Origin: Hanleya hanleyi
Taxonomy: Eukaryota > Mollusca > Polyplacophora > Lepidopleurida > Hanleyidae
Direction: 5' to 3'
NCBI GenBank assembly: GCA_036873755.1
Contig: JAVTVY010017392.1
Coordinates: forward strand, 124,001 to 188,000
DNA: 64,000 bases
Below, piece after piece: positions 2,444-25,386 of the stretch; position 1 is the stretch's first letter; each line of letters opens with the position of its first letter. The notes below the pieces were generated by a model that was given only the letters and a program-made list of their open reading frames with translations, searched no databases and was not told the origin of the DNA. The position numbers and the translations under genes are program-made.

Positions 2444-2449
2444 ACCCCT

Positions 2450-3935: not shown

Positions 3936-4120
3936 TAACACAATGCTATTCCTTGGATAACAACTTCTTTATTGCTGTGGAGCTGACGTTTCGTTGGAGA
4001 TACTTCCAACTTTTTCAAAGCTAATGAAAAAGCTTTGAAAAAGTTGGAAGTATCTCCAATGAAACGTCAGCTCCACAGCAATTACGAAGTTGTTCATAGA
4101 ATAGCATTGTGTTATATACG
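3936..4120. mobile_element. Palindromic MITE-like element
   Basis: A near-perfect inverted repeat of about 185 bp. The arms read GCTGTGGAGCTGACGTTTCG and onward, and meet near 4023 around AAAAGCTTTGAAAAAGTTGG. The outer ends ACACAATGCTATTC and GAATAGCATTGTGT are exact reverse complements. This fits a fold-back MITE. A related half-site (GGATAACAACTTC, GACGTTTCG) lies at 10228-10275. Confidence 0.8.
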
Positions 4121-4280
4121 CCAACTTCTAAATGCCTGTCAAAGAAAAAAAATGTTTACGTATAATCGCTTCAGGAGTTGATATCCAACACGCTGGTCAA
4201 AACAGTCGAACAAGCAGGAGGTTCTGTTGGAAGCAGCCGTCCGTGTGTCTATTTTTGTGTAATTGGAACTATTTCAAAGA

Positions 4281-4925
4281 CAATGTGTCCAGACCATATA
4301 TCAACCGACAATTCCACTTTGGTGTTAGGGACAAACAACACTGAACCAGGAAGGAACGTTTTTGTGGAGTTAGGGATATTATTCAGCATCCATGTTTATT
4401 TTTTCTCCGTTTTCTTCGTCGCAATCGCAGCCTTATTGTGGCCGTGTTGTGTAACAGCTTGTTGGCAAAGTCACCAAACCACTAATCGTTTTTCCGCCAG
4501 CCTCCTCGTGATGTTACTCACTTTCACCTTACCGAGAGCAATTGTGATGTTTGTGGATCCTTACTTTTCTAACAAATCATTAGACCTGTTGACCTTTTAC
4601 CTTATTATGTCATTGGCTTTTCCCGCTCTCACGTCTGCCTATTGCATTCTTCTCCTCGCCATTCTGGATTCCACACGGCTGTCACTCTGTCCTCCAAAGT
4701 TTCAAAGACTTCGAACGATATCATTAACTACATTATTGCATTACAGCGTCTACGCTGTGACTTCAATCTTAGTGTATTTTGAACAAGACAGTTATTATTT
4801 CATCACAATATGCCATTCATTATCTTCGGTCTGGGGACTCGTAGTTGCTATCGGTTACACAGTGGCGGCGTACAGGCTTCGAAGGAATATCATGCCGGTT
4901 ACACCAAACCAAACCAGGAAACAAG
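4281..4925 (+). CDS. Multi-pass membrane protein exon (PRRT3/4-like)
   Basis: An open coding exon that ends at a consensus splice donor (CAAG|GTAAGA, 4925/4926) in phase 1. From MCPDHIST near 4283 it encodes a short segment with two N-glycosylation sequons (NST, NNT), then five hydrophobic helices: FVELGILFSIHVYFF, LLVMLLTFTLPRAIVMF, LTFYLIMSLAFPALTSAY, LTTLLHYSVYAVTSI and a last one containing VWGLVVAIGYTVAAY. The VDPYF and LLLAILDSTRL motifs between helices resemble the membrane domain of proline-rich transmembrane proteins 3/4, recognised from memory only. The left limit is uncertain: the frame is open to 4178, and an AG acceptor just before 4281 is weak. The next exon is at 5481. Confidence 0.6.
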
Positions 4926-5480
4926 GTAAGATAGCAACCGTCAGATCCGACATAAAATATTCAGCCGTTGTTCATAGAACAATTCCCGCGTCAATAATTG
5001 AAAGACCTCTTCGGTATGATTGCAACAATTCCAAAATGTGCATGAAATAGAAATGATAAACACACAAGATGGTTTCCTGTAATAGGGAAGCGTTCAACTA
5101 TCTTCAATGTCAGCAAGACATAATGATGTTCTTTGTATAAAGTCCTAATGCCTGACCATTATTCTTTATCAAAATGAATTTCCAAGTCGTTTCTAGAGTA
5201 TGTATCTCCTGCCGCTTTGAGTGAGATTGTTCACGTGAAAACCATGGAGATGCGAAACACAACCTCTGCATTGTATTCCGCAAATGGCTTGCCTTTCGGG
5301 TTATTTTTCGTAATATTAACGCGTAATTTGTAGTCAACATGGCCGGTTGGTTCATTGCTAATAAAACCTTGCTTGAAGCTCCGCGATTGCGAATTAAATA
5401 GATCTAGTAAGGAAGAATACTCGTCTGGCCGTTCGTTCTTAATTTCACAAATTCTGTTTATATTTCATGTTCCCGATAAG

Positions 5481-5791
5481 ACAGCACACAAAGACGGATT
5501 CGCAAGCTAGTCACAGTTCTCTATGTCTGTGCCTTAGTTGGAATTGTGGGAACCGGTGTGACGTTATTTGGTGCTGTTGGTGCCAGACTGCCCTGGATGG
5601 ACTCTAGTGAAAATCCTTTGTCTTGGTTGATATTCCAGACGCTATCACGACTGGTGGAAGTTTCCTCTTCTATGTTGGTCTTGTTTGTAGCGTCCAGATC
5701 ACAGCAAAAATGGATGTTTCCTTGTCCGTGGAATTCTTTATGTAAACGGCTGAATAAAAACTGTGGAACTTCTTCGAGTGAATCAGAATAA
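5481..5791 (+). CDS. Terminal exon of the same membrane protein
   Basis: An acceptor AG at 5479-5480 followed by a phase-1 continuation makes an uninterrupted join with the exon ending at 4925 (intron about 555 bp). The exon begins STQRRIRKLVTV and adds two more hydrophobic helices (LYVCALVGIVGTGVTLFGAV and WLIFQTLSRLVEVSSSMLVL), giving about seven in total. A short Cys- and Ser-rich tail ends in ESE and a TAA. FQTLSRLVEV matches the style of the last helix of PRRT3/4-type proteins. It appears to be an intact host gene 3' end. Confidence 0.6.
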
Positions 5792-6149
5792 GGATAGTCA
5801 CTGAAATGACGATTTAGAGTTAGCTTGTATCACCAGCAAGGAGACGGATGATGCAGGTAGAACAAAACACAAGTCAACTGACTGACAAGGATCCATCCAA
5901 CAAGTATATAGCATCAAACATATGATCACAGGTATGTCGCAAGTTCTTCAAAACCATCAGAAATTTCGACATCCACATACAGTGTAACTTATATTTACAG
6001 CAATTGTCAACGAAATTGTGCCGGGTGATCCCTAAGTCTATTAAAATTCTCTGGATGTATAATGTCGGTTTCAGGTGCATATTTTTGCATAAGAAATCCT
6101 CCAGATAAATGACTCAAACATACCAAACTAGAATAGGTAAAGATTATTA

Positions 6150-6720
6150 GTTATTCAGGTTTTCCCCGGTTGTATGGAAAGTTACGACTCTTCCTGAAGC
6201 TCATCCACCATGAGGCGTTAACGAATTTATTACCCCTCAAGCCTTTTTTTATCTTATAGTAAAAATACTGAAAAGGTCTATCACTTATAACCAACGGTAC
6301 AACGGACAAAATCCAACGGGTCATTTCGATTACGAACTGCTCACTTTTTGCTACTGCACTGTGAGAAAGGCGCGCGCAACAACACAATCCATCCATCGTG
6401 CGGAAATCGACTTTTATTTTTGGAACAAATTACACGTTTTGGTGATTTATGAAACGTCGGAAACTTCAGTGAAAGTAATGCAGTATGACTTTATTCCATT
6501 AAATTTTGACGAGTGAGCGAAAGTCGTTCCATAATATTGAGATATGATCAGCTTAACTTTCGAAGCCAGAGCGTCGTTTCCAATCGGACGTGAGTTGTTT
6601 TCTATATGCCCGGAGTAACAAGACATCACTCGGGGTATATGGGTACGAACCGACCTTTTACCTAATCACAATCCCGATATTGAATACAAATTCGCTTGTG
6701 GGGTAATATATACAATCTCG
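6150..6720 (+). mobile_element. Non-autonomous repeat, copy 1
   Basis: Shares long stretches with 9010-9600 (same strand) and 8460-8900 (opposite strand). Shared landmarks are CTTTATTCCATTAAATTTTG, GACGAGTGAG, CTTTCGAAG, GAGCGTCGTTTCCAATCG and CCCGATATTGAATACAAAT. No open frame is conserved between copies, so it is probably a non-autonomous transposon or SINE-like unit. Confidence 0.75.
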
Positions 6721-8459
6721 GTCACATTGGTTGTTGCATTGGTAAAATAAATCGAACTTTTAACAGAATAGTGTAGTTCTGGCTAATTCGATTGATTTTT
6801 TAGTATTTCTTTCTACTTTTCGCGAGAAAACATGTTTCGTGAGACTACATGCTTCCTCGAGCTTTGTACGACAATCTGCCTGTATTGAATTTGGAACAGT
6901 TTTTAATTTCAGATGAACTATCATTAATCTAATGACAATTAGAACAAGACAATGCTAATGAAAAGCATTTTTCCCGTGAGAAAGTTACACTGATAACCAT
7001 TTGGAATTAAAAACTGTTTGGGATCACACAGTAGTCAGTTAACGTTCCTTGGTATGTTGGTTTACTAATATAGGCGTCGCGTAAAACGCCACGGTATGCT
7101 TGCCGGAAGGTTTCGTAACCCAATAATGAAGAAATTTTCTCATGCGGTCGCAACAGCGGCTTCAATTTGCTTTAGAAGAACAGTGTGAACACGCATTTGG
7201 CATAAATATACAGTTCGGCTGCACGGATAAGTCTTCTCTAGTGTTTGAATAAGGGGGTATAAGAGACTGGGGTCAGACCGCACAACTTGGTTGTTCACCA
7301 AGATGTGTCCCGGACAGCTTAACTACGTCACAGATCCTGACGAAAAGAGGGTGCCAGGATGCGAGTTCAATTTAACCCAACATCGTCGACGTCTCGTATC
7401 GGCCCCATATGGACGTTGTCTCGCACCTCGTCGGCGGTTTCAGCATGTTGTTGCTGTCGAGCTCAGGTTCTCTTCTCCGAAGAGAGGCATGACAATTAAA
7501 GCTCGGCGTATTGTACCGCAAACACGAGAACAAAGTGTCGATCACAATACACTTCTTCTGATAATCTAATCTTAACTCTCAACAAATGCCACTAGGGCGC
7601 GTCTCCGGAATGCGTACGAGAGGAATATCATTGTTTGCCTTCGGAAAGCGTTTGATGACTTGTATGCAAGATAGAAAACTAAATGCACCTATTCGTCAGA
7701 GTCGCATGTTGAGGAATTTTCTTTAATCCATTATGTAAAAACAATAGCCTGTCATACAGGCTCCTCAGATTTCAATTTCACGGAACACATGCATTTGCGG
7801 CAAGGGATGTTGACACGATACATTTGAAACGATTGTAAGCGGCATGCCATGGCGTTTTGGGTCAATAATGGCATTTGCTGTGGAAACGCAGCATAACATT
7901 GAATATCGACTGACTACTATGTGGTTGCAAGCAATTTTTATACTCCAAAAATTTCCATTGAATTCCAATACAGGTACATATAGATTGTTGACCAAAGCTA
8001 AAAAAAAACAGGTGATCCTTCGGAGATTCATGAACCGTCGACAAAAATACTCAGGAATCAATCTAATACGCCAGAAATACGCGCTTCTGTCATGTTTCGA
8101 TATTTTTTTACTAATGCACCAACCAATGTGGCCGAAACTGTATCGACCTTCTTGCAGAAAGGCCTTGGCCTAAACGTTTGTAAATCGAGTATAAATAAAG
8201 CCAATTATTATTATTGTTATTATTATTATCACTATTATTTTTATTATTATTATTACATGTTGCTATGGCCATGATGCCGGTAATATATTTTAGCTCATTA
8301 GGCTTGCCCGCGCAGATATATGACGACTATACAGTGCTACCCTATTTGGTATACATGGGAATTCATTGATATCAATCATACTTCCGTATTTCGATGGAGA
8401 GAATAGCGGTTTGGCTAGACAATCGATGGGCATACATGTAGTGTACTAAGTGTCATGTA
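6721..8459. other. No supported gene; TTA microsatellite at 8204-8262
   Basis: AT-rich DNA. The short open frames at about 7303-7569 and 7844-8173 have no recognisable domain. A (TTA)n tract occupies about 8204-8262. Confidence 0.4.
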
Positions 8460-14191: not shown

Positions 14192-14197
14192 GGCGTA
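14192..14197 (+). repeat. Left target-site duplication GGCGTA
   Basis: GGCGTA immediately precedes the left terminus (AGTAGTAGTGTAAGAG) and recurs exactly after the right terminus at 32455-32460. Six-bp duplications are the rule for Polinton integrases. Confidence 0.93.
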
Positions 14198-14546
14198 AGT
14201 AGTAGTGTAAGAGTAAATTGATGCCCGTTGACCTTTGACCTCAGAAATTTGCATATGACGTCACTTCCGGTTGGGCCGACTGAGGCGTGACCTTTGGATA
14301 TGTCCAGACTTATTTGTTATGTACTGGAGTTTTTCCCTGGCATGCCGCCATGTTGTAGGCGCCATGTTGTAGCCGCCATGTTGGACAATTGTTGTAGAAA
14401 AACGTATAAAAGGAGGAGATTTTTAGTGGTTTGGTGTATTCATTGCACTACCCTACGGAGCTCTCTGACCTACCTTTCTGCTTGCCTAGCCTGCTTGCCT
14501 GCCTGCCTGCCTGCTTGCCTGTATGAGACGTGGAGAAGGTTTTCAT
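14198..14546 (+). repeat. Left terminal inverted repeat
   Basis: Matches the reverse complement of 32023-32454. Inside are an octamer ATTTGCAT (14247-14254), CRE TGACGTCA (14256-14263), an adjoining ETS-like CTTCCGG, three GCCGCCATGTTG-type units (from about 14341), TATAAAAG (14405-14412), and a CCTG-rich leader up to the ATG at 14523. The repeat runs past that ATG: ATGAGACGTG, AGAAG and TTTTC are shared with the start of the polymerase gene. Confidence 0.93.
14405..14412 (+). promoter_or_regulatory. TATA box in left TIR
   Basis: TATAAAAG, within the TIR and about 110 bp upstream of the CARD-gene ATG at 14523. The same box on the opposite strand (32191-32198) serves the polymerase gene. Confidence 0.7.
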
Positions 14547-15227
14547 TTTACCAGTGCAACTTCACCAGCCTATTACACCGTAGCAGCTACTGACCAGCCT
14601 GAGCCCACAGTCATGGAGTCACCCCAGCGAGTTAAGCTTCAACAGCACCGTGTTCGCCTCATTGATGAGATGCAGCATGTGGCCGAACTATGTGATCTGC
14701 TTATGGAGGAAAACATACTCCTGAAACACGGTGTCGAAGATATCATGGCGCAGAACACCACTTCACGACAAAACAGAGCCCTCGTCGACGATCTACTGCG
14801 CCGTGGCCCCTATGCATTTCTAGCCTTCGTGGAGGCGCTGAAGAAGACGGGAAATGAAGAACTAGCAGATCTACTTCAAGCCCAGGATTCAGAAGATGAT
14901 ATCTTAGTCATGGACATCACCGACCAGCGTACAGCTACCAAACTTCAAGAAGTAGCAGATCTACTTGAAACCCAGGAGCGTACAGCTAGCAAACGTACGC
15001 ACCCAGAGTCTGGTGTACCTGCCAAACGCGGTGCACGATCCAAACGACCCCGACTAACACATTTAGAAATACCTGAGCAAGTGCTTCAGCCAATGTCCCA
15101 GCAAGTGCCTGAGCCAGCGAAAGAAGAAGAGGTGCAACTTCCTATGTCTGTGCAGGAGATCAATGACATTATCAACAGGCCTACCAGGCTGCCCACACGA
15201 ACACTTGGGAGCTCTCACCCTATTTAA
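14523..15227 (+). CDS. CARD-domain protein
   Basis: A 234-residue protein. Residues about 31-120 read as a caspase-recruitment domain: the pattern L-x2-H-R-V-x-L-I-D-E-M, then LCDLLMEENIL, GVEDIMAQ, NRALVDDLLRRGPYAFLAFV and EALKKTG. It closely matches the six-helix CARD of adaptors and caspases such as CRADD and caspase-9. The rest is charged and probably disordered, with a basic nuclear-localisation-like patch (KRGARSKRPR, near residue 172). CARDs mediate homotypic binding in apoptosis and innate-immune complexes, so a host-modulating decoy role is my inference. The start lies in TIR-derived sequence; a second in-frame ATG at 14613 precedes the domain and may be the true start, since the first 28 codons recur at 18174-18258 inside another gene. 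Confidence 0.85.
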   Translation: MRRGEGFHFTSATSPAYYTVAATDQPEPTVMESPQRVKLQQHRVRLIDEMQHVAELCDLLMEENILLKHGVEDIMAQNTTSRQNRALVDDLLRRGPYAFLAFVEALKKTGNEELADLLQAQDSEDDILVMDITDQRTATKLQEVADLLETQERTASKRTHPESGVPAKRGARSKRPRLTHLEIPEQVLQPMSQQVPEPAKEEEVQLPMSVQEINDIINRPTRLPTRTLGSSHPI

Positions 15228-15229
15228 CT

Positions 15230-15910
15230 GTGAGTGTCAAAGACGAGGAAGTGCATTTTAACGCTCCGGCCTGGGACGGCAAACCAGCTAAGCATATCGC
15301 CTTGACGTTCGACACCTGGCTAAAACTACAGACCATTGATTACGCCATCGATGCGGTCATTGACCACCAGGGGAGTGACGAAGCGAAATTTTATGTGGGT
15401 GACGACATCTTTGTCAGCTGTTCTAGATTCAACGACATGCTCCTGGTGCATATACGGAAATGGAAAATGAGGTCAGATACGCAAGAGCGTGTTCCTTGTC
15501 CCCAGGGCGTCACCTTGAAAATAACGGCGTGGCGGAAGCTGCAGAGTCTCACAGCTATAATTTATGAAGCCCTGTCTGACCAGGTGTCTCAGTATATTTA
15601 TAAAAAGTACATCGACACATTCCTGGATCATCTCAGACCTCGCATTCGACACTTGCGTATACAGCAATGTGCAGGCTGTGTGAACAAGGACGGGGTCTTC
15701 AACACGCATACGTGTGTGGACAATAGTATACCATCAGATGCGCTCATCACTCAGGCACTACAGGACGTGACCGAGTTGCAAATTGCCCTGGCATTGGAAG
15801 CTGCCTGTCCACCCAGAATTCCACGTGAACAGATTGCTACCTTCATGTACGTGCACAAGGGGCGGAAAGACGATGATGAGTTCAAACAAGTCTTGTTGCA
15901 TAAATATTGA
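15230..15910 (+). CDS. PC4-like ssDNA-binding repeat protein
   Basis: About 226 codons. The central part (FYVGDDIFVSCSRFNDMLLV, IRKW, GVTLKITAWRKLQSL) follows the PC4/Sub1 fold pattern: beta strands, a V-x-I-R-x-W/Y strand, a G-x-x-L-x-x-x-x-W turn, then a helix. The N-terminal part repeats the second half (HIALTFDTWLKLQTIDYAID). PC4 proteins bind single-stranded DNA and act in transcription or replication. There is no ATG at the front: the frame opens on GTG and continues upstream, overlapping the end of the CARD frame, so it may once have been fused to it or need splicing. A Cys pair (QQCAGC) and C-terminal helices follow. The stop lies inside a tandem duplication. Confidence 0.6.
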   Translation: MSVKDEEVHFNAPAWDGKPAKHIALTFDTWLKLQTIDYAIDAVIDHQGSDEAKFYVGDDIFVSCSRFNDMLLVHIRKWKMRSDTQERVPCPQGVTLKITAWRKLQSLTAIIYEALSDQVSQYIYKKYIDTFLDHLRPRIRHLRIQQCAGCVNKDGVFNTHTCVDNSIPSDALITQALQDVTELQIALALEAACPPRIPREQIATFMYVHKGRKDDDEFKQVLLHKY

Positions 15911-16256
15911 ACATTTCAAGTCTTGTTGCATTGAAAACATTCAGACATTACCGTATTCCTACATTCTATGTTCATTCTACGTTCATTGAAGCGCCTTGAT
16001 AGCGTATAATTGTATTTAAAAAATTCAATACCCAGAGTCTACTGTGGTGAAGACGTTCATTCTACTGTGTTAGTCTTGTTGCATAAATATTGAACATTTC
16101 AAGTCTTGTTGCATTGAAACATTCAGACATTATCGTATTCCTACATTCTATGTTCATTCTATGTTCATTGAAGCGCCTTGATAGCGTATAATTGTATTAA
16201 AATTCAATACCCAGAGTCTACTGTGGTGAAGACGTTCATTCTATTATGTTAATAAA
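15889..16256 (+). repeat. 183-bp tandem duplication with polyA signal
   Basis: Two copies (about 15889-16071 and 16072-16250) of a segment beginning CAAGTCTTGTTGCATAAATA, which includes the last codons and stop of the PC4-like frame. AATAAA at 16251-16256 follows the second copy and probably ends that transcript. Confidence 0.85.
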
Positions 16257-16466
16257 AATAGTAGAAAATTCAATATGGGTGTTAGTGTTCATTGAGTGTG
16301 GTGATGGGAGCTGGTGTTTTTTGTGCTTTGAGTTAGAAGTTTCCTCTTTCGAAAAGATTGGTGGCCCTGAAAAGGGACTTTGAAAAGTGTTTTATCACAC
16401 TGTTTTACGGGCGGTAAATTTTCTTCACCCCGGACACCCACACCGTACACACAGGACACTTTATCT

Positions 16467-17099
16467 TTAAATGCAGTTCCTCCGTCTCACTGCACTGGCA
16501 CGCCCCCCTATACATGTTAGGGATACCCAGCATTCCCGACATAGGCATAGGTGACCGCACGGGAATAGGGCGTACATGGTCTCTTCGATGTTACACACGC
16601 TACAGGTGGATTTATTCTCTTCCTTAGTCAGATCTCGACGTAGTTTACACTTCTCCTCTTCCAATTGATCAATGTGTTCGTTCATTTGATCAATCTGTTC
16701 GTTCAGGCGGACCATCTCGGTCCAAGAGGGTGGTGTTGTCATTCCTGTTGTTGTTGTAGCTGGCGTTGTGGTAACCGGCGTTGTCATTCCTGTTTCCGTA
16801 GCCGGCGTTGTGGTAGCTGGCGTTTGGGTAGCCGCTGTATTTGCTGGGGGTCTACTGTTTAACCACTCTATCTCGGGGAGTTCTTCATCGTCCGTGACAT
16901 CCTCATCGTCCATAGCGTCCCTGACCTCTTGGTCTTGTTGTTCACTTCGCCGTCTCAACGTATCGGCAATATGATGTTCATGCACCCGCTGTAAGCTGGT
17001 AATTATTGTCACATGATCGCCATCTTCTTCACTGGTAATCACCTCCCTACGTTCTCTAGGATCTTGTGCGTTGAATAACCTCCGTCTGGTAGTCATCAT
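16467..17099 (-). pseudogene. RING-finger protein (leftward paralogue, frame-broken)
   Basis: A 210-codon minus-strand frame. The N-terminus is charged (EEDGDHV, DDEDVTDDEELPEIEW). The middle is a Thr/Pro repeat (TTPATTTTG) and a coiled coil (LNEQIDQMNEHIDQLEEEK). It then enters a RING: CSVC, 11 residues, FPCGHLCLCREC. The distal zinc ligands (CPVC) are not in this frame but occur just downstream in another frame near 16454-16465. The break falls at a run of six G/C at about 16505-16510, so it is either a recent indel or a sequencing error. The RING resembles the C-terminal E3-ligase RING of IAP proteins. It is the mirror-image paralogue of the gene at 17829-18682. Confidence 0.7.
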
Positions 17100-17138
17100 G
17101 TAGTTGTGAATGAATGGCTAGATACTGCGCGTTATTTA

Positions 17139-17148
17139 TAGTCTAGGC
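17139..17148 (-). promoter_or_regulatory. TATA-type promoter of leftward RING gene
   Basis: On the minus strand, ACTATAAATA lies about 45 bp upstream of the ATG at 17099. The leader between them (GTATCTAGCCATTCATTCAC) is identical to that of the rightward gene at 17829. Confidence 0.7.
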
Positions 17149-17149
17149 G

Positions 17150-17188
17150 GCCATGTTGTAGCCGCCATGTTGTAGCCGCCATGTTGGA
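17150..17188. repeat. GCCGCCATGTTGTA units between the RING genes
   Basis: Three 14-bp units of the same type as in both TIRs, immediately upstream of the leftward RING promoter. The core matches the known YY1 consensus GCCGCCATNTTG. Confidence 0.75.
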
Positions 17189-17206
17189 AAATGGCGCGCG
17201 GACGTC

Positions 17207-17602
17207 GATTTTTAGACCCGTAACGTTATGGATAGGTTGGTGTGGAAAACCCAGTACACTTGAAATAAATCGGTTTACCTCCGTAAAAATACGTGAGGTG
17301 TGTTCCTCACAGCCTTATAATGTCACCCTGAAAATTGCAGCAGGTTTATCGAAAGAAAAGTAGGAATTTTTATCCTATCACGCGGGCTACGGTAACACAG
17401 CCATTGACATGCATAGCTGTACTCACATTTGCCTTCACACTGTATAGTGCTGTGTTACCGTAGCCCTGCTGCGATTTTCAGGGTGACATTATAAGGCTGT
17501 CAGGAACACACCTCACGTATTTTTACGGAGGTAAACCGATTTATTTCAAGTGTACCGGGTTTTCCACACCACCCTATCCATAACGTTACGGGTCTAAAAA
17601 TC
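17207..17602. repeat. Large inverted repeat between divergent RING genes
   Basis: Left arm about 17207-17401 and right arm about 17448-17602 are reverse complements, for example ACCCGTAACGTTATGGATAG against CTATCCATAACGTTACGGGT, and CTACGGTAACACAGC against GCTGTGTTACCGTAG. The central spacer is about 46 bp, and the left arm has about 40 bp that the right lacks. Homology resumes outside the arms, through the two promoters and genes. Confidence 0.9.
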
Positions 17603-17782
17603 TAGTTGCCCTAGTTCAAGTTGAAATGAATTTTACACGTCCACTCGCATTTATTGCAAAATGACACCGGTTTAAAGTTGCAAAAGAAACACAAAATTTC
17701 TGCGAGCCTAAGCCAGCGCAGTATTTTGATGGAGAGATTTCGCTGACGTCCGCGCGCTCATGCGCGTGCTCTACGGTTAGAC

Positions 17783-17790
17783 TATAAAAA
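17783..17790 (+). promoter_or_regulatory. TATA-type promoter of rightward RING locus
   Basis: ACTATAAAAAAA lies about 45 bp upstream of the ATG at 17829, with the same leader as the leftward gene. A GACGTCCGCGCGC element at about 17745-17757 sits just upstream; it recurs in the tandem repeats at 20050-20870. Confidence 0.7.
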
Positions 17791-17828
17791 AAGCGCGCAG
17801 TATCTAGCCATTCATTCACAACTACATC

Positions 17829-18389
17829 ATGGATATGGCTGAAACCATGGATATTGATGGAGCCATTGATAACCTATTACAAGAGCTATTGATAGATAAT
17901 GAACTACAACACCAACCGGTAGAGAAGAATTTCATCGATATGGTACACGATGAAGATTGGATGGGTAATATATTACGAGACCTATTCATAGATGAACAAC
18001 AACAACAACAACACCAACCGATACAGGGTGGCGATATTGAACACGACGAAGGAGCACAAGTGGCAGCGGATGTCACCGCACTCCAATACCAACGGTTTGA
18101 CCGAGTGCTAGAAGATATCTTCCAACAACATGAAGAACAAAGCCTCCAAGCTCAACGCCTACCCGATGAATTTATGAAACGTGGAGCTTTTCATTTTACC
18201 AGTGCAACTTCATCAGCCTATTACACCGTAGCAGCTACTGACCAGCCTGAACCCACAGAAAAAGGGGGGAAAAAAGAACAAGAACAGATGGCTATTTTAC
18301 AGCCGCCATTACTGGGAGAAGACCAAGAAAAAACAGAAAAAACAGAAAAGAGATGTTTAAAAGAGACAAAAGAGACAAGAAACAACTAG
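17829..18389 (+). CDS. Acidic Gln-rich protein, N-terminal part of RING locus
   Basis: 186 codons from the first ATG of a strong TATA-driven leader. Acidic and helical (DGAIDNLLQELLIDNELQ) with a Gln run (DEQQQQQHQ), then FQQHEEQSLQAQRL. Codons about 116-143 (18174-18258) are a near copy of the start of the CARD gene (shared FHFTSATS and AYYTVAATDQPEPT). The frame then runs into a Lys/Glu-rich stretch and stops, while a RING begins in an overlapping frame at 18353. By analogy with the leftward paralogue, whose N-terminal region and RING share one frame, this was probably one protein. The frame change lies in the A- and G-rich runs at 18258-18350. Confidence 0.6.
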   Translation: MDMAETMDIDGAIDNLLQELLIDNELQHQPVEKNFIDMVHDEDWMGNILRDLFIDEQQQQQHQPIQGGDIEHDEGAQVAADVTALQYQRFDRVLEDIFQQHEEQSLQAQRLPDEFMKRGAFHFTSATSSAYYTVAATDQPEPTEKGGKKEQEQMAILQPPLLGEDQEKTEKTEKRCLKETKETRNN

Positions 18390-18682
18390 AACACATTCAA
18401 GAAATGGAGGACTACTCTACCGCAATAAGAAGAAGACTGGCACCAGACGCAATATGGAAACCACCACAGTATTTACGCTGTGTGGAATGCTCTAGAGGCT
18501 TTGCTAAATATGCCATTTTTCCATGCGGCCATCAAGCCCTGTGTCCATCCTGTATTCACAGACATGCCCACCGAACAACAGAGCAGCCTATGTCCACTGA
18601 CACCCCCCTAGAGTGTAAACTCATCGTCCTCGACTGTCCGGTGTGTGCCCAGAGGCGAAGAAACCTGACCCGAACGATGTAA
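18353..18682 (+). CDS. RING-finger E3-like domain, rightward copy
   Basis: 109 codons. After a basic start (MFKRDKRDKKQ) comes a complete RING set: CVEC, 9 residues, FPCGH, QALCPSC, a long 27-residue loop, then CPVC. The FPCGH-x2-LC-x2-C form is like IAP-type E3 ligase RINGs, apart from the unusually long loop before the last pair. E3 activity is inferred from the fold, not shown. It overlaps the end of the upstream acidic frame by 37 bases in another frame, so it may be its displaced C-terminus. A GGCCCTTTTCAGGGCC hairpin lies just downstream. Confidence 0.7.
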   Translation: MFKRDKRDKKQLEHIQEMEDYSTAIRRRLAPDAIWKPPQYLRCVECSRGFAKYAIFPCGHQALCPSCIHRHAHRTTEQPMSTDTPLECKLIVLDCPVCAQRRRNLTRTM

Positions 18683-18689
18683 CCCCTTA

Positions 18690-19424
18690 CATTTTCCAAA
18701 GGCCCTTTTCAGGGCCACCCAATCTTTCGAAAGAGGATGAAGCTTCTAATTCAAAGCACAAAATAACACCAACTCCTGCACATGCGCACACACACACACA
18801 CACACACACCTAGGTAACAATAGGTAACAATAGGTAAATAACACTTAGTCAATGAAAAACTTCCTACTAACAGCGCCCAGGTATTAGTATGAATGTACGG
18901 TAACCGAATAATGCCGGAAATAGCCGAGTGTAAAAAAAAATTCGTGGTGGGGAGATGGGTAAATGAGAGAGGGTGAGGAGATTGAGTACTACAGAGGTGG
19001 GTCCCGGAAATAGCCGAGTGTAAAAAAAATTGTTTTGATGGGTGAGGTGAGGGAGATTGGTAAAATCATAGAGGGGGAGAGGGGGCATTTTGCGAGGGTT
19101 GGCCCTGATAAAAAGGAGGACGGTTTAGGGGTTGGCCCTGAATTTTGTTTGCATGGGTTGGCCCTGAACACTGAGAAAAAAAACTGTGTGTTGGAAGGCG
19201 AAGGGTTTGGCCCTGAAAAGGACCGTTAAGGGGCAGGGATTTTTTGGGGGGTTGGAGATTGGTAATCATAGAATATAGAGGAGAGGAGATTCACCCATGT
19301 AGGACCTGATTTGAATTCAATGTGCCAAGTTAGAAGTTCCCCTTTCGGTAGATTGGGGTGGCCCTGAAAAGGGCCGTTAAGGTCAATTTGTTTACCCTGT
19401 TTTATTCAGGGGGAGTTTGCCTGT
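18690..19424. repeat. Low-complexity spacer with GGCCCTGA hairpin motifs
   Basis: No gene. It holds a (CA)n tract (about 18787-18808), TAGGTAACAA repeats, two copies of CCGGAAATAGCCGAGTGTAA about 86 bp apart (18917 and 19003), and several GGTTGGCCCTGA motifs (about 19097-19220). A GGCCCTGAAAAGGGCC hairpin is centred at about 19365-19380. Confidence 0.7.
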
Positions 19425-19847
19425 TTACTCCAAACTGCTGACGGAAAAGTAGCGGCCAGGTTCCAACCGGTAACGGTGTTGTTGTTGTTGGTCATCGACA
19501 TCATCTATGGGGAGATCGTCTACAAACGATGCGGGTTGTATTTGTCCGATGTCGATGAATTCCGGCTGGACTTGTGGACGAGGTTGTCGTTGTTGTTGTA
19601 CCTCATCCAGGGTCTCTCGCAGATGGATCAACCACTCCTCATCCGACAGAGTTCTAGCTAGCACGATGAGGGCGTGGAGAACTGTCCCTGCTTCCCGTGT
19701 GAAGTTGTTGTTCACTTGCCGGCACCATTGCTGTATTTCCCCTAGCCAGAAGGCTTTAATGGCTTTCGCCACCTCGGCTCTCTGCCTCTTCGCCTCTACC
19801 ATCCGCCCCGAAGCCTTGGTCGTGGACATCTTGGCCACCCTGTTCAT
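19425..19847 (-). CDS. Hypothetical helical protein
   Basis: A 140-residue minus-strand protein, not recognised. It is basic at the N-terminus (KASGRMVEAKRQRAEVAKAI), predicted helical through WCRQVNNNFTREAGTVLHAL and ARTLSDEEWLIHLRETLDEV, then Gln-rich and acidic (DDLPIDDVDDQQQQ). It has its own TATA box (TATAAAAT near 19923-19930, minus strand) about 75 bp upstream and the GGCCCTGAAAAGGGCC hairpin just downstream, which supports a real transcription unit. The small all-helical size would suit an adaptor-type domain, but I see no diagnostic motif. Confidence 0.55.
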   Translation of the reverse strand: MNRVAKMSTTKASGRMVEAKRQRAEVAKAIKAFWLGEIQQWCRQVNNNFTREAGTVLHALIVLARTLSDEEWLIHLRETLDEVQQQRQPRPQVQPEFIDIGQIQPASFVDDLPIDDVDDQQQQHRYRLEPGRYFSVSSLE

Positions 19848-20049
19848 TTTTTCCTGCTGCAGTCTATAGATCTTGACAGTCTGGCAAAGGTATTTGGAAT
19901 GACGCTTGCCACGCGGCCCCGGATTTTATACTGAAAGTAGAGTAGATTTTCATTGGCTGTTTCAACGGAGGTGATGCTCCTTCATTGGTTCTTTTATCGA
20001 TCGCTCATTTGTTTTTTATCGATAGCTCTTTGGCTCTTTTTGTCGACTG

Positions 20050-20870
20050 CTGATTGGCCAATATAGCGCGTAGCATACCTTCCTGGGTTAATTTTCAATC
20101 CTCACATTTTGCACAAAATTGGCTATGGCAAATTCCCATGTTAAATCCATTCGTATCTCTATAACATTAGGGTTGGCCCTGAAACATTTTTTCGTTGTGG
20201 GTCTCAGCCAGCGCGCGGACGTCGGTGCAATTCGCGACGTCCGCGCGCACATACCTTCCTGGGTTAATTTTCAATCCTCACATTTTGCACAAAATTGGCT
20301 ATGGCAAATTCCCATGTTAAATCCATTCGTATCTCTATAACATTAGGGTTGGCCCTGAACAATTTTCCGTTGTGGGTCTCAGCCAGCGCGCGGACGTCAG
20401 CGAAAGTCGCCACGTCCGCGCGCACATACCTTCCTGGGTTAATTTTCAATCCTCACATTTTACATAAAATTGCTATAGCAAATTCCTATGTTAAATCCAT
20501 TCGTATCTCTATAACATTAGAGTTGAACTACGCGTCGCTGATTGGTCCAATTTTAGGCGCCACTGATGCCTGCTGGGTCACGTCAGAATCCTCACTTTTT
20601 GCGCAAAATTGCTATGGCAAATTCCCAGGTTAAATCCATTCATATCTTTATAACATTAGGGCTGGCCCTGAAAATTTTTCAGCTGGTCTGAGCCAGCGCG
20701 CGGACGTCAGCGAAATTCGCGACGTTCGCGCGCTCTAGCCGAATGCATGTGCAGCTATGTATTGGTGCGAGTGATGCATCCTGGGTCACGTCAGAATCCT
20801 CTGATTTTGCACAAAATTGGCTATGGCAAATTCCCAGGTTAAATCCATTCCTATCTCTATAATATTACAG
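20050..20870 (+). repeat. About 175-bp tandem repeats with GC-rich palindromes
   Basis: Five units, starting near 20074, 20250, 20424, 20564 and 20772. They share CCTCACATTTTGCACAAAAT, GCTATGGCAAATTCCC, GTTAAATCCATTC and TTGGCCCTGAA. Three carry a palindrome built on GCGCGCGGACGTC: 20211-20248 (14-bp perfect arms), 20386-20423 and 20696-20733. Noncoding; a candidate origin or enhancer. Confidence 0.9.
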
Positions 20871-21106
20871 CCCGAATGATCACCGACTTTCAAGAAGGTA
20901 GGGGAAAAATAAAAAAAACTATAACGTATACGGGTACGGATAGAGAGAGGCGCGAAAAAAATTATAACGTGTACGGCTACGGACTAGGGGTTTAATAGAC
21001 ACTACCGAGTGATCACGGACTTTCACGAAGGGGGGAAAAAACCCCCACAACTTGGACCCTTCAATATATACAGGCCTGCCTCGTCGGTGTTTTGTCATTC
21101 ACCACC
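20871..21106 (+). promoter_or_regulatory. Promoter region of second PC4-like gene
   Basis: Contains duplicated blocks (ATAACGTATACGG and ATAACGTGTACGG; GATCACCGACTTTC and GATCACGGACTTTC). An AATATATA TATA-like box at 21063-21070 lies about 40 bp before the ATG. Confidence 0.55.
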
Positions 21107-21790
21107 ATGGCAGCGCACGGAGCACTTGGGGAGCTTGCCTTGTTCCAACTCACTCCCCACGTCACCCTGATCGTCTATGACCATCAACTGCAGCTCATCG
21201 AAGAACAACCCCGAGAGGTGAAGCTATGTTTAACCCTAGCAGGATGGACTCTATTGACACGGTTGTTACAGGGAAAAGATCCCGAAGTCGATTTCATGCA
21301 CGTGGGAGTAGGTGTCTACCTACGAAGTGGTAGAGATGATTCTTTTTTTCCCCGGTTAGACGAGCGTGGTGGTCCCTCTATCATACTCCGTCCGGCATTA
21401 TGGCAGGCGCTGAAAGCTATTATCACCGACGTCCACGACTTACTGTACCCCGACGCGAACTCTGTGGCGATCCGCACTCTTACACCTGGCTGCACCCTAT
21501 TGTTGTACCCCAAACGAGTGGAGCTCATCGATGACGACAGTAGGTGTTGGTGTACGTCTGAACCAGCGCGTGTCTCTTTGTCACCGGAAGGCTGGACTAC
21601 CTTGAAACGGGTGTTGTTGGGTGACCTGGACGGTGATAGCATTCACCTGTGTGACGACGTCTACATTTTCCGCGGTCCCTATTTTGCTGGACTCCTCTGT
21701 CTGAAGCGAGGTGGTTTTACTCTGGACCCTGATCTATGGACAGCCTTGGAAAAAGTAATCCCCATTGTCGATGAAGTACTATATCTATAG
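21107..21790 (+). CDS. PC4-like repeat protein
   Basis: 227 residues from an ATG in strong Kozak context (ACCACCATGG). It shows four repeats of a PC4-type second half: a strand, then L-x-x-x-x-W-x-x-L and a helix. They read VKLCLTLAGWTLLTRLL, PSIILRPALWQALKAII, RVSLSPEGWTTLKRVLL and GGFTLDPDLWTALEKVI. Each is preceded by beta-rich sequence such as IHLCDDVYIFRG. I read it as two tandem PC4-like units, related in plan to the protein at 15230-15910 though diverged. A single-stranded DNA-binding or transcription role is inferred only from this resemblance. Intact; stop TAG at 21788. Confidence 0.6.
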   Translation: MAAHGALGELALFQLTPHVTLIVYDHQLQLIEEQPREVKLCLTLAGWTLLTRLLQGKDPEVDFMHVGVGVYLRSGRDDSFFPRLDERGGPSIILRPALWQALKAIITDVHDLLYPDANSVAIRTLTPGCTLLLYPKRVELIDDDSRCWCTSEPARVSLSPEGWTTLKRVLLGDLDGDSIHLCDDVYIFRGPYFAGLLCLKRGGFTLDPDLWTALEKVIPIVDEVLYL

Positions 21791-21823
21791 GGTGCACACA
21801 GGCTAGAGTGTCAGTGTCTACTC

Positions 21824-22198
21824 ATGAAGCGAACACACCACAGCGCAAGGAAAAGGGGCACCCAGATGAGGGGCACCCCAAAGGGAACGAGAAAAGGTGG
21901 GCGGCAGGAATCCACGTGGCGTACCACTGTGAACAAGGTGTTAACAGATTTGTATTACAACCCTACCAGTCCAGCCGCTTATAGCGCTGTGGGAGCGCTC
22001 GCTCGAGCTGCACATTCCCAAGGCATCAGTCGAACTGAAGTTCGAGAATGGTTTAAAACCCAAGACACTTATAGCTTACATCGAGCAGCCCGACGACATT
22101 TTCGCCGTAACCGAGTCATCGTAGGAGGCGTAGACGCAAAATGGCAGGCTGATTTGGTCGATTTGCACCCCACAAAGATGGACATCGGTACATGTTGA
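21824..22198 (+). pseudogene. Integrase, N-terminal part (frame-broken)
   Basis: 124 codons. A basic start (KRGTQMRGTPKGTRKGGRQ) is followed by the Polinton integrase N-terminal region (PTSPAAYSAVGALARAA, VREWFKTQ, YSLHRAARRHFRRN). The first catalytic Asp follows in DAKWQADLVDL. The frame is lost within about 22160-22195 and the core continues in another frame at 22192. The break sits between the first and second catalytic acidic residues, so this copy cannot make a full integrase without a frame change. Confidence 0.85.
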
Positions 22199-22914
22199 CC
22201 TGTATCGATATTTTATCCAAGTACGCATGGGTACTGCCCATCCGGACCAAAACAGGAGAGAATCTGGTACGGGCGTTCCAGCAGATTTTCAAGACAGGAC
22301 GCAAACCCCTCTATTTGCAAACGGATGAAGGCACAGAATTTCTCAACCGTCACTTTCAAGCCTTTCTTAAGAAACAGAAGGTGTTTTTCTTCCATACGTA
22401 CAACGAGACCAAAGCCTCTGTCGTGGAACGATTCAATCGCACCTTCAAAGGACGAATGTACAAGTATTTTACCGCCAAAAACACCCGACGGTACATCGAT
22501 GTGCTACCTCAACTGGTCCAAGGGTACAATCGAGCCTATCATCGCAGTATCCAGCGAGCTCCCCTCGATGTGACAGAACGCAACGAACATCAAGTGCGCC
22601 GTACGCTGTACTCGATAGACCCCAGTCCACTCACGTCACCCCGTTACAAACGCGGAGATGTGGTACGGATCAGTAAAGTCAAAGGGCAATTTGAGAAAAG
22701 TTACTTGCCCAACTGGAGTGTCGAGCACTTTGTCGTCGTTCGCCATAAGGCAGAATTACAACCGGTGGTGAAAACACGTAAAGACTACTACACGGTGGAA
22801 AAGATTTTGAAAACGCAACGTCGACGTGGCATCCCCTATCATTTCGTCAAATGGCAAGGTTGGCCCAGTTCGTTTAATTCCTGGATGTCAGGCCGTGACA
22901 TGAAACGACTATAA
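22192..22914 (+). CDS. Integrase core and chromodomain (C-terminal part)
   Basis: 240 codons of an rve-type (retroviral DDE) integrase, starting inside the catalytic core. The second Asp is in LQTDEGTEF and the Glu in SVVERFNRTFK, with spacing usual for the family. An SH3-like segment (RYKRGDVVRISKVKG) follows. The C-terminus is a chromodomain (YYTVEKILKTQRRRG, YHFVKWQGW), typical of Polinton integrases and thought to guide insertion through chromatin marks. It joins the target DNA and makes 6-bp duplications, matching the GGCGTA repeats seen here. The first ATG of this frame is internal to the domain. Confidence 0.9.
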   Translation: MLTCIDILSKYAWVLPIRTKTGENLVRAFQQIFKTGRKPLYLQTDEGTEFLNRHFQAFLKKQKVFFFHTYNETKASVVERFNRTFKGRMYKYFTAKNTRRYIDVLPQLVQGYNRAYHRSIQRAPLDVTERNEHQVRRTLYSIDPSPLTSPRYKRGDVVRISKVKGQFEKSYLPNWSVEHFVVVRHKAELQPVVKTRKDYYTVEKILKTQRRRGIPYHFVKWQGWPSSFNSWMSGRDMKRL

Positions 22915-22958
22915 ATTCTACCTCACATCGCCTACATCCTTCAGTGTAGGGTTGTACC

Positions 22959-23138
22959 ATGGATAGTGCACATCTACCCTTACTGCTACGGACTCGAAAA
23001 AGACAAGTCGGTACCGTGGTGTGTCTAGTAGTGCTTCTGTGTACCTTATTTGGAGGAGTCTTCTACGATTTGGCGTACCTGATATCCTGTTTCAACACCA
23101 TTCGTCCAAGTGCTGCTCCACCTCAACGTCAAGTGTAA
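22959..23138 (+). CDS. Small single-pass membrane protein
   Basis: 59 residues. A short polar and basic N-terminus (RTRKRQ) is followed by one long hydrophobic segment, about residues 17-45 (VGTVVCLVVLLCTLFGGVFY and on), and a Pro-rich tail. ATG context is ACCATGG. Small membrane proteins are common between integrase and ATPase genes in Polintons and adintoviruses; function unknown. The Pro-rich open sequence that follows in other frames (to about 23546, ending at a stop that overlaps AATAAA) suggests a once longer protein, now frame-broken. Confidence 0.55.
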   Translation: MDSAHLPLLLRTRKRQVGTVVCLVVLLCTLFGGVFYDLAYLISCFNTIRPSAAPPQRQV

Positions 23139-23550
23139 TCACCCAACACCACCACCACCATCACCGCCACCACTACTCTCTCTCCTACGACGCTGCGATC
23201 ACCCTACACCCAGTCTACGACGCGGTCTAGTCCTCTTTTCATCCGCCAGCCTCCTGTATCAACCCTCAGACTACGGACCCTATCACCACACACACTCAGC
23301 CCCACGACGCGGTCTAGTCCTCTTTTCATCCCGCCAGCCTCCCCCGTATCATCCCTCAGAAGCGACGAACCCTCCGAGGCACCCCGATCACGACAACCAC
23401 CCAGTACACCTACCAACACCACGACGCTAACACTTAGAGTGGGATCCGGTGAATCACGTTTACCGCGGCAACGGTACCCGTTCGACTACGATCCCCGGTG
23501 GGATCCACGACAACGGTGGTGGGCCTCTGAACCTCAAATCACCAAATAAA
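23139..23550 (+). pseudogene. Pro/Arg-rich remnant with an 88-bp duplication
   Basis: Open but ATG-less frames rich in Pro, His and Arg. Two copies of CGCGGTCTAGTCCTCTTTTC lie about 88 bp apart (near 23220 and 23308). The end (RWDPRQRWWASEP, then TAA within CCAAATAAA, AATAAA 23545-23550) looks coding. Probably the displaced C-terminal part of the membrane protein. Confidence 0.4.
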
Positions 23551-23559
23551 AAAAACGCT

Positions 23560-24174
23560 ATGGATCCTCGGTGGTAGCATCCTTTCACGTGTCTCATCGC
23601 TGGACCGACTGGGTCGGGAAAAACACACTTCGTTCAACGGCTCATCCAACACGGGTCAGCCCTCATTTCACCTCCCGTGGCTCGCATCCTGTGGTGTTAT
23701 GGAGCTTGGCAACCGGCGTACGAGGAACTGGCACGCCTCCCTGGACTCACCTTGGTGGAAGGATTACCTCCCGAGGATACGCCAGAAGACACGTTGGTCG
23801 TGGTAGACGATCTCATGACCGAAACGGACAGTCGAATCACCCGTCTCTTTACCAAAGGAAGCCATCATCGTCGGTTGAGCAACATCTACATCGTCCAGAA
23901 TCTCTTCAGTAAGAACAAAGAGCACAGGAACATTAGTTTGAATGCTCAGTATGTGGTCTTATTCAAATACCCCAGAGACGCATCACAAATTATGCATCTG
24001 GCAAAACAGATGTACCCTAAAAACACGGCCTTTGTGTGGGAAGCTTTTGAAGATGCCACCCAAGGGGCTCACGGGTATCTACTCATCGACTTGAAACAAG
24101 AGACACCCTCGGCACTTCGATTGCGCACCCGCATTTTTCCCGGTGAGTTGCAGACGGTGTACACACCCAAATAA
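23560..24174 (+). pseudogene. FtsK/HerA-class packaging ATPase (premature stop)
   Basis: The frame opens at ATG 23560, but codon 6 is TAG (23575-23577). After it the frame is open to 24174. Walker A is GPTGSGKTHF near 23603-23632. Walker B is TLVVVDDLM near 23793-23819. LYIVQNLF-type and ARILWCYG strands complete the A32-like genome-packaging ATPase of Polintons and adintoviruses. The total of about 204 codons is normal for the family. The enzyme would pump DNA into capsids. There is no usable ATG between the stop and Walker A, so the gene is probably dead, barring readthrough or sequencing error. The stop overlaps AATAAA (24170-24175). Confidence 0.85.
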
Positions 24175-24213
24175 AAGAAGAAGACACAACCCTCTAGTAT
24201 TCACTTCCTCGTC

Positions 24214-24552
24214 ATGTCTGCACGGATACGTAAGCACGTGCCGGCCCTCCGCGTATTACGCAGCGCGCCACCGGCGGTGGGCCGGGCCCTGGTGCGCGGC
24301 GCGGACCCAGACTTGGTACGGTGTTTGTGTGAAGTGGCTCATAATGTGTTAAAAGGGAATGTTCCTCTCAGTCCTCTGCAGAAAGGGAAATTGCAACGGC
24401 ACAAGACGGGTCTCCGAACGCTGGTGAAGAAGACGGGCAATGTCAAGAAAAAGAAACAGGTGTTACAGCGAGATGGATTTCTCGGCGTACTCCCCGCACC
24501 CTTAGCCGCTACCGTACTGGGACCGTTAGTAGGCTCCATCTTGGGACGCTAA
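24214..24552 (+). CDS. Small basic Polinton protein (core-protein-like)
   Basis: 112 residues, intact. Recognisable as a conserved small Polinton/adintovirus protein: ADPDLVRCLCEVAHNVLKGN, PLSPLQKGKLQRHKTGLRTL, a Lys run (KKKKQVLQ), and a hydrophobic Gly/Leu tail (LAATVLGPLVGSILG). It is strongly basic, compatible with DNA or virion-core binding. Likeness to adenovirus core protein X is a suggestion from size, charge and gene order. Its stop is one base before the next ATG. Confidence 0.7.
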   Translation: MSARIRKHVPALRVLRSAPPAVGRALVRGADPDLVRCLCEVAHNVLKGNVPLSPLQKGKLQRHKTGLRTLVKKTGNVKKKKQVLQRDGFLGVLPAPLAATVLGPLVGSILGR

Positions 24553-24553
24553 C

Positions 24554-25165
24554 ATGGAACATACGAAAAAAATGATGCTGGTCGAACCTCGACTGTTACA
24601 GAGTTTGCAATCACCCTATACCGTACCTGCCACGGTGCAACAACTCCAGTCTCTCGACGAAGAGATGAATAGTATATTCCAACGTCGACTACCCGATCAC
24701 GAGGAAATTCAACTTTACCATCACACGCTGAACCAGTACAAGACGTTTATGGATCAATATAGGGGTAGTACACCCCTACTACCCGCAGCGCCCACGCTCA
24801 CACCACCCACACCCACACCACCACCACCATCATCCTCTGCCTCACCTCAGCTCGAAGAGGAAGTGTTGGCCAGTGTCCCTAGAGCATTCAAGACCAAAGC
24901 TCGTTTATTGTTGGACCGGGTGAAACAGAATCCTAATATGGGTTGGACCGACCAGGGGCAGCTGCTGATTGGAAACCGAGCGGTACCGGGGTCTCATATC
25001 ACCGATCTGATCAACGGTACGGTACGTTCTCGCAAACACTCTAATCCACCGGGGTGGGAAGCCTTTGCTCAGGGGTTGAAAGACACACACACCCCTCGAG
25101 AATTGATAGGAAATCGTGAACGCTGGAACTGGATGCAAGCACCCTCTCGACTTCTCCATACCTGA
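24554..25165 (+). CDS. Conserved Polinton virion-associated protein (putative)
   Basis: 203 residues. The helical N-terminus (MMLVEPRLLQSL, LQSLDEEMNSIFQRRLPD, LYHHTLNQYKTFMDQY) is typical of a hypothetical protein found between ATPase and minor capsid genes in Polintons. A Pro/Thr-rich linker (TPPTPTPPPP) follows. The C-terminal segment (RLLLDRVKQNP, GQLLIGNRAVPGSHITDLI) may be a small folded module. Function is unknown. In another frame, coding-like sequence continues to about 25313 and ends KAWEPY, so the natural C-terminus may have been displaced by an indel near 25120-25165. Confidence 0.6.
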   Translation: MEHTKKMMLVEPRLLQSLQSPYTVPATVQQLQSLDEEMNSIFQRRLPDHEEIQLYHHTLNQYKTFMDQYRGSTPLLPAAPTLTPPTPTPPPPSSSASPQLEEEVLASVPRAFKTKARLLLDRVKQNPNMGWTDQGQLLIGNRAVPGSHITDLINGTVRSRKHSNPPGWEAFAQGLKDTHTPRELIGNRERWNWMQAPSRLLHT

Positions 25166-25315
25166 GAACGTGAATCGCAACCGCAGACTCCTCCCAAAAC
25201 ACCCTCACGGCGGGGACGTTCTTTTCACCCCTATGCAACCTCTATGCCGGCCACCTCTATGCCGGCCCCACCGTCGCGACGATCACAACGCCAAGGTCAG
25301 CCGCCCAAGGCGTGG

Positions 25316-25386
25316 GAGCCCTACTAGGGAACCCTACTAGGGAACCCTATTAAAGCCCGGTGCAGAAGCCAGAAAGCTCAGTCGTC
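25316..25386 (+). promoter_or_regulatory. 14-bp repeats and TATA-like box before the minor capsid gene
   Basis: Three tandem GGAACCCTACTAG-type units (25316-25349) run into TATTAAAG (about 25349-25356), which lies 31-38 bp before the minor capsid ATG. Confidence 0.5.

Follow-up and report, generated by a model that had tools for sequence, protein, structure and literature searches.

The window, a stretch of 64,000 nucleotides from the polyplacophoran Hanleya hanleyi (contig JAVTVY010017392.1, positions 124,001 to 188,000 of the forward strand), contains an 18,257-bp Polinton at 14198-32454, with AGT termini and a perfect 6-bp target duplication; by its ends, the element is complete. The initial annotation had called it a Polinton, and this was borne out by its terminal inverted repeats (TIRs), its target-site duplication, an integrase with a chromodomain and an adenain-type protease. 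The element and its genes are laid out as follows:

14192-14197, no strand: left target-site duplication GGCGTA, identical to the 6 bp at 32455-32460.
14198-14521, plus strand: left TIR, beginning AGTAGTAG, with a TATA box at 14405 (blastn and inverted-repeat search).
14523-14612, plus strand: leader of the CARD gene, with the same start context as the PolB-like gene at 32046.
14613-14885, plus strand: CARD, residues 31-121, Pfam stretch 38-120 (PF00619 and PDB).
14886-15173, plus strand: linker, to about residue 217 (sister alignment and motif scans).
15167-15910, plus strand: PC4 half of the CARD gene (PF02229, E=1.4e-7), out of frame here.
16467-17099, minus strand: RING1 gene (PF13920, E=3e-7), its C-terminus lost in the window copy.
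17829-18682, plus strand: acidic ORF4 and RING2, two overlapping frames; a single ORF in sister copies (270 aa in L021, for example).
21824-22914, plus strand: integrase with chromodomain (PF00665, PF00385), split here between two ORFs; sister L015 has it as a single ORF of 383 aa.
23677-24174, plus strand: packaging-ATPase-like ORF, its N-terminus outside this frame.
25360-26175, plus strand: minor-capsid-like ORF, placed by gene order and by eye; no Pfam match.
26829-27686, plus strand: major-capsid-like ORF, placed by gene order and by eye; no Pfam match.
28546-29085, plus strand: adenain-type protease (PF00770, 21.5 bits, narrowly passing the cut-off of 21.3).
29441-32046, minus strand: PolB-like gene in three separate ORFs, with a DTDS motif seen by eye.
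32081-32454, minus strand: right TIR, beginning AGTAATAG inward, with a TATA box at 32198 (minus strand).
32455-32460, no strand: right target-site duplication GGCGTA.

The integrase matched PF00665 (E=1.6e-7) at 31.9 bits, narrowly missing the cut-off of 32.6, and its chromodomain matched PF00385 at 27.8 bits, above the cut-off of 25.1. The best 120 of 1458 integrase matches include proteins of chiton, acorn worm and amphioxus; within these 120, the ten best relatives are 60-64% identical, all ten with both domains, and the best named match is from the chiton Liolophura sinensis (62%). No Pfam match to a double jelly-roll major capsid protein, a minor capsid protein or a packaging ATPase was found among the window ORFs, and the PolB-like gene matched no polymerase in Pfam (three pieces) or in the PDB (two pieces). 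The capsid-like and ATPase-like assignments rest on gene order, reading by eye or weak matches: the packaging-ATPase-like ORF is 39% identical to an ORF of a sister element (L010) that has sub-cut-off matches to Pox_A32 and Adeno_IVa2, and the major-capsid-like ORF is shortened by an inserted repeat from about 27620. Both RING genes that had been reported for the element exist, RING1 exceeding the Pfam cut-off of 27 (30.5 bits) and RING2 falling just below it (24.6 bits), as it does in two sister copies (24.1 and 26.6 bits). By eye, the RING1 ORF of the window (210 aa) stops before the last pair of zinc ligands; the ORFs of two sister copies (250 and 258 aa) cover the profile to position 46 of 49. 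CARD-PC4, the integrase, the PolB-like gene and RING1 are all broken in the window copy.

Several other sequences lie in or near the element. An interspersed repeat of about 750 bp occupies 27620-28366, between the capsid-like ORF and the protease, and is nearly whole, at 87-97% identity, in six of 20 long sister loci (L014, L016, L018, L022, L023 and L026). An ORF at 28016-28435, which matched no Pfam family above cut-off, was dropped as a piece of the PolB-like gene since it lies mostly within this repeat, which recurs in other loci. The ORF at 21092-21787 (plus strand, 232 aa) has two PC4-like repeats by eye and no Pfam match, and both of its halves match one and the same stretch in L015 and L020. 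A tRNA-Ser-like gene with anticodon ACT is located within the Polinton at 29306-29391 (minus strand), and a palindrome-like inverted stretch containing a piece of the terminal repeat separates the divergent RING1 and ORF4 genes (17094-17831). A 15.5-kb satellite array with a 22-bp unit (32545-48025) starts about 90 bp past the right end of the Polinton. A 5S rRNA match (55.7 bits, above the gathering score) is found near a sister Polinton, at 6815-6919 (plus strand) of L021.

The ORF at 14523-15227 runs, as had been annotated, from an ATG at 14523 to a stop codon at 15225-15227 and encodes 234 aa. The CARD that had been proposed for residues 31-120 or so was confirmed by a match to PF00619 over residues 38-120 (E=2.2e-16; 60.1 bits against a cut-off of 23.9; profile positions 3-84 of 85), and residues 31-121 by themselves matched at E=2.7e-17. 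Nine shuffles of the domain were made and five were scanned; CARD was matched by none of the five, two of which weakly matched other families, and the E-value together with this control rules out a chance match as the source of the call. In a phmmer search of the PDB the best match of the window ORF was the CARD of caspase-9 (8.8e-9), followed with declining scores by CED-3, RAIDD, cIAP1 and Apaf-1. The profile search that had been recommended as a check found the CARD both with Pfam and with a profile of 15 sister proteins, which matched 50 distinct PDB sequences at E<=0.01: 44 that contain a CARD (caspase-9 at 7e-13, CED-3 at 5.6e-10, cIAP1 at 2.1e-9, RAIDD at 2.2e-9, Apaf-1 at 1.4e-5, and also the CARDs of MDA5/IFIH1), three designed proteins, one of them described as derived from a CARD template, and three PC4 proteins (2e-4).

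AlphaFold models made without relatives were weak (pLDDT 52.9 and 72.5, with helices 1-3 merged), and Foldseek searches with these single-sequence models gave nothing at E<=0.001, the best match being the CARD of Apaf-1 (E=2.5). Neither the CARD ORF nor the CARD alone had a match among 5.8 billion proteins at E<=0.001 or E<=1, which is weak evidence because that search admitted only lengths of 0.55-1.75 times the query, so that proteins of 447-484 aa fell outside it. No relative turned up in the viral contigs scanned, and searches of PHROGs and NCBIfam gave nothing useful.

Almost certainly, the window ORF covers just the N-terminal half of a longer gene, CARD-linker-PC4, which the Polintons of this animal regularly carry as an accessory. 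The initial annotation was right that the Polinton carries a CARD, but the gene is not CARD-only: it is a CARD-linker-PC4 fusion, frameshifted in the window copy. The window frame tracks the sister proteins to about residue 217, where the match passes to the frame of the next ORF; because of the frameshift, the last 17 or so residues of the 234-aa ORF are not native. The PC4 frame (15167-15910) has no ATG near its start and matched PF02229 at 31.4 bits (cut-off 25), and the PC4 part of the sister alignment matched PC4 in the PDB at 9.8e-8 (solved PC4, 1pcf, at E=2e-7). PC4 is the fold of a coactivator that binds single-stranded DNA.

A first look at the 2.48-Gb genome gave 4025 CARD candidates, of which the best 150, the CARD of the window included, were scored; all 150 exceeded the cut-off, and the gene is therefore regular in this Polinton lineage. 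For contrast, the caspase domain gave 71 first-look candidates in the same genome, all of them scored, and 52 matches. The loci read, 20 of about 10 kb and 16 short ones, were drawn from these 150 in a way that favoured long open frames; eight further stretches of 3.25 kb (L001-L008, class 3 as defined below, partly the same places as L009-L011) stand outside this count of 36, and three of them with ORFs listed have an ORF of 281 aa in two cases and a broken one in the third. In 35 of the 36 loci the ORF that holds the CARD is 150 aa or longer. In this sample biased to long frames, a single ORF encodes both CARD and PC4 in 30 loci, with PC4 cut short in three of these (L039, L040 and L041); five have no PC4 in the CARD ORF (L022, L023, L025, L026 and L027), and L028 has CARD and PC4 in separate frames. 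In each of the 20 loci of about 10 kb, PC4 is encoded downstream of the CARD and on its strand; the distance is at most about 260 bp in 19 of them and about 1 kb, across an insert, in L022. All 15 aligned sister proteins match both PF00619 (E<=0.01) and PF02229, and among 14 Polinton-type loci RING1 is near CARD-PC4 in 12 and RING2 in 10. The initial annotation had advised looking for the same gene at the same position in other Polintons, and sister Polintons do have it at the equal place; its view that the gene is not standard for Polintons does not hold for this host, in which the gene is standard and no one-off. Thus CARD-PC4 has spread with the transposons. A host gene merely near a Polinton is ruled out by the position of the CARD gene within the TIR and target-site limits, and further by a leader and start context that it has in common with genes of the element, alongside which it recurs.

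The 36 CARDs fall into three classes: class 1 with 20 members (the window copy included), class 2 with 10 and class 3 with six. Mean CARD identity is 84% within class 1 and 55% between classes 1 and 2, and class 3 is 43% and 42.5% identical to the other two; PC4 is present in all three. The class-3 genes are found in small elements no longer than about 6 kb. In five of the six loci the gene is flanked by inverted repeats that measure 235 to about 1180 bp, and the sixth (L024) has only short ones. In L010 the element (121-6314) has repeats of about 980 bp (121-1098 and 5338-6314) that enclose three genes: one for PC4, one for an ATPase that has a C2H2 zinc finger and weak matches to Pox_A32 and Adeno_IVa2 below cut-off, and CARD-PC4. 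L011-L013 gave the same three matches (PC4, P-loop ATPase and CARD-PC4), and with the window ORFs as queries no polymerase, integrase or capsid was recognised between the repeats of L010-L013. A shorter element in L009 (2678-6428) interrupts the minor-capsid gene of a Polinton; read from the printed flanks, its ends are AGTAG and the duplication is 6 bp long (CTCACC). These class-3 elements look like satellites that may be moved by a Polinton integrase.

Counting inward from the left TIR, the CARD gene comes first, and a TATA scan found TATAAAAGG in both TIRs, at 14405 and 32198. The CARD gene and the PolB-like gene, at opposite ends of the element, have in common a 22-base start context; the pattern built from the two sites had two matches, compared with at most one in each of 100 shuffles, and the predicted proteins begin with MRRGEGF and MRRAEDF, respectively. 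Most of the CARD leader (14522-14610) is duplicated within ORF4, at 18173-18258. Of the 20 loci of about 10 kb, six of which are class-3 copies close to each other, 19 have a TATA box in the 500 bp upstream of the CARD, against 572 of 2000 pieces of 500 bp taken at random from these loci. Because the TIR TATA box and the start context are common to both, the CARD gene and the PolB-like gene are probably expressed together and early.

Control by the element bears on one reading of the fusion, that it is a pro-death or sensing device whose DNA-bound CARD triggers host caspases on exposed element DNA, or a sensor adopted by the host. Its combination of a CARD with nucleic-acid binding does resemble the CARD-carrying nucleic-acid sensors, MDA5/IFIH1 being among the matches above. 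Early killing of the cell would be useless to the element, however, and the gene has a TATA box of the element upstream of it and travels with the element; we consider this reading very improbable.

Histone-type 3' stem-loops (RF00032) were predicted after three accessory genes of the window copy, with scores on both sides of the gathering score of 34:

16338-16383, minus strand: after RING1 (26.5 bits, E=8.3e-4, below the gathering score).
18696-18742, plus strand: after RING2 (38.2 bits, E=3.5e-8).
19335-19380, minus strand: after the ORF at 19425-19847 (33.7 bits, E=1.8e-6, just under the gathering score).

The core of the stem-loop has four matches in the window, against 0.04 expected. Sister copies have six RF00032 matches above the gathering score, in five of 14 loci, and 19 matches to the core, in 12 of 14 Polinton-type loci (L014, L016-L023, L025, L027 and L028); the core is absent from L015, L026 and the six class-3 loci. 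This suggests that the three accessory genes may make histone-like, non-polyadenylated mRNAs of S phase. Among the literature matches listed, none connects Polinton-type elements to a histone stem-loop.

Twenty-five CARD positions are invariant among the 36 CARDs, including basic R85 and R94 and acidic E72 and D73. The equivalent of caspase-9 R56 is arginine in all 36 and that of R13 in 31, and all 36 have an arginine at one of two positions near R51/R52; R13, R52 and R56 are arginines by which caspase-9 binds Apaf-1. The linker of the window copy contains an acidic-hydrophobic stretch, EDDILVMD (residues 124-131), that can be read as SIM-like, and a basic stretch, KRPRL (residues 174-178), that can be read as NLS-like. 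KRPRL or KRPQL is found in 26 of 35 ORFs, being absent from the six of class 3 and from three short ones, and an EDDILVMD-like stretch is present in all 19 class-1 ORFs and in a single one (class 2) of the other 16.

Rough estimates of selection were obtained by parsimony on FastTree trees of 30 CARD and 22 PC4 sequences, a set that omits the six class-3 copies and PC4 parts under 85% length, and in which copies decayed after insertion and may have exchanged sequence. PC4 has dN/dS ratios of 0.49 on internal and 0.47 on terminal branches, and the CARD has 0.89 and 0.58; within class 1 they are 0.50 and 0.41 for PC4 and 1.13 and 0.66 for the CARD, the N-terminal half of which is strongly variable in this class. 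On internal branches class 2 has the reverse (CARD 0.31, from four changes; PC4 0.65), and the contrast between CARD and PC4 on internal branches is not significant (p=0.06 overall, p=0.08 in class 1). Pairwise median dN/dS is 0.71 for the CARD and 0.43 for PC4. PC4 is thus under constraint, and the weaker constraint on the CARD can reflect either an arms race or relaxation.

These data also bear on whether the gene is a functionless relic of one host-gene capture, as the frameshift in the window copy, the other broken genes of the element, the five of 36 loci without PC4 in the CARD ORF and the one with separate frames could imply. A relic would not be expected to have CARD and PC4 in one ORF at 30 of 36 loci (even with the bias to long frames), to keep both domains in each of three classes only 42-55% identical, or to have a PC4 dN/dS well under 1. 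In-frame sister copies disfavour the relic of a single capture, which we regard as very improbable.

The initial annotation had suggested that the gene serves to block or divert host cell death, and the caspase-9-like CARD with its conserved basic patch makes this plausible. The most likely role of CARD-PC4, at somewhat less than an even chance, is that of an early, nuclear, DNA-bound decoy against signalling of the caspase-9/Apaf-1 type. The TIR TATA box and the start context would drive early expression along with the PolB-like gene; the conserved basic KRPRL/KRPQL would bring the protein into the nucleus; the PC4 domain, to judge from its family, would tether it on single-stranded or promoter DNA of the element or of the host; and the initiator-caspase-type CARD would occupy host CARD partners, either an Apaf-1-like adaptor or a caspase-9-like prodomain, so that death or alarm signalling would be blocked while the element replicates. 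The caspase-9-like CARD, the basic patch, the constraint on PC4 and the iridovirus CARD precedent (below) would all count for such a decoy. Against it, the CARD is the less constrained half, a pure decoy would need no constant DNA-binding fusion, KRP[RQ]L is missing in nine of 35 ORFs and the acidic-hydrophobic motif is nearly confined to class 1. Three Polinton CARDs recognised no CARD in 12 host caspase loci (of the 52 matches), stretches of only 3.2-3.8 kb, because of which distant exons are missed. Two caspase loci on one contig, L045 and L046, lie 71 kb apart with near-equal caspase-domain matches and stop-free frames of 955 aa.

Retention of PC4, and survival of the gene in satellites, are better explained if the CARD is an assembly module and CARD-PC4 a single-stranded-DNA-binding or late-transcription protein of the Polinton: PC4 would coat the displaced strand of protein-primed replication, and CARD-CARD contacts would build filaments or replication foci. 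PC4 accompanies the CARD in every long locus (20/20 downstream; 15/15 aligned proteins) and is the more constrained half overall; satellites L010-L013, without recognised polymerase, capsid or integrase, retain CARD-PC4 and a second PC4 gene; the invariant R85, R94, E72 and D73 are residues that a self-polymerising CARD would need; and the start and TATA module is common to the CARD gene and the PolB-like gene. In our estimation this assembly role is the main rival of the decoy, though less likely than it. Against it, the nearest CARDs are initiator-caspase prodomains, the variable N-terminal half of the class-1 CARD would be odd for a pure self-assembly surface, and we know of no CARD used as a DNA-coating assembly module. 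Somewhat more doubtful again is a dual reading, in which CARD-PC4 coats or organises element DNA by CARD polymerisation while tying up host apoptosome partners, and CARD genes are spread genome-wide by autonomous Polintons and their satellites; if it is true, a death-signalling fold has become part of the DNA machinery of a transposon-virus, and a large pool of new CARDs is on offer to the host.

The findings point to a large amplification of CARDs in an animal genome, one that could be misread in annotation as an expansion of immune genes. A fusion of a CARD to a DNA-binding domain as a regular Polinton gene, in three divergent classes that include satellites, would show that these virus-like integrating elements either combat host death signalling or make use of it, and provides a testable link between Polinton replication and apoptosis. 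Viral death-fold decoys are, to our knowledge, known mainly from large DNA viruses, and we have not met the pairing of CARD with PC4 elsewhere. Literature on Polinton, Maverick or adintovirus yielded no CARD or CARD-PC4 among the matches listed, and the portions available of PMC10812802 and PMC8363768 contain no pairing of a CARD with Polinton-type elements.

The nearest working precedent is the iridovirus CARD (GIV-CARD and its ranavirus relatives), which is likewise a CARD borne by an animal DNA virus; it is reported to be the product of an early gene, to enter the nucleus and to lower caspase-8 and caspase-9 activity (PMC4457926). Unlike this vCARD, the caspase-9-like CARD of H. hanleyi is fused to PC4 and is carried by an integrating Polinton. 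A CARD-only viral decoy of the vCARD type is ruled out by the PC4 fusion in sister copies, and because of this fusion CARD-PC4 is not filed as a vCARD. Vertebrate Mavericks, in which (AGT)2 ends are reported to be the commonest, differ in that the word "card" is absent from the main text of their description (PMC8097293), whereas the accessory gene here is CARD-PC4. The element resembles the adintoviruses in combining a PolB-like gene, a chromodomain integrase and candidate adenovirus-like virion genes; homologs of anti-apoptotic genes are mentioned for these viruses, but "card" and "caspase" are absent from the main text and the PC4 fusion falls outside that comparison (PMC11071296). As in the coactivator PC4/SUB1 (p15), the PC4 core aligns to the solved structure 1pcf (E=2e-7), but here it is embedded behind a CARD in a protein of about 450 aa. 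Finally, CARD-PC4 has a CARD without protease or NTPase, like the CARD-only and CARD-plus-tail inhibitors ICEBERG and ARC, and differs from them in its DNA-binding partner domain and its origin in a mobile element.
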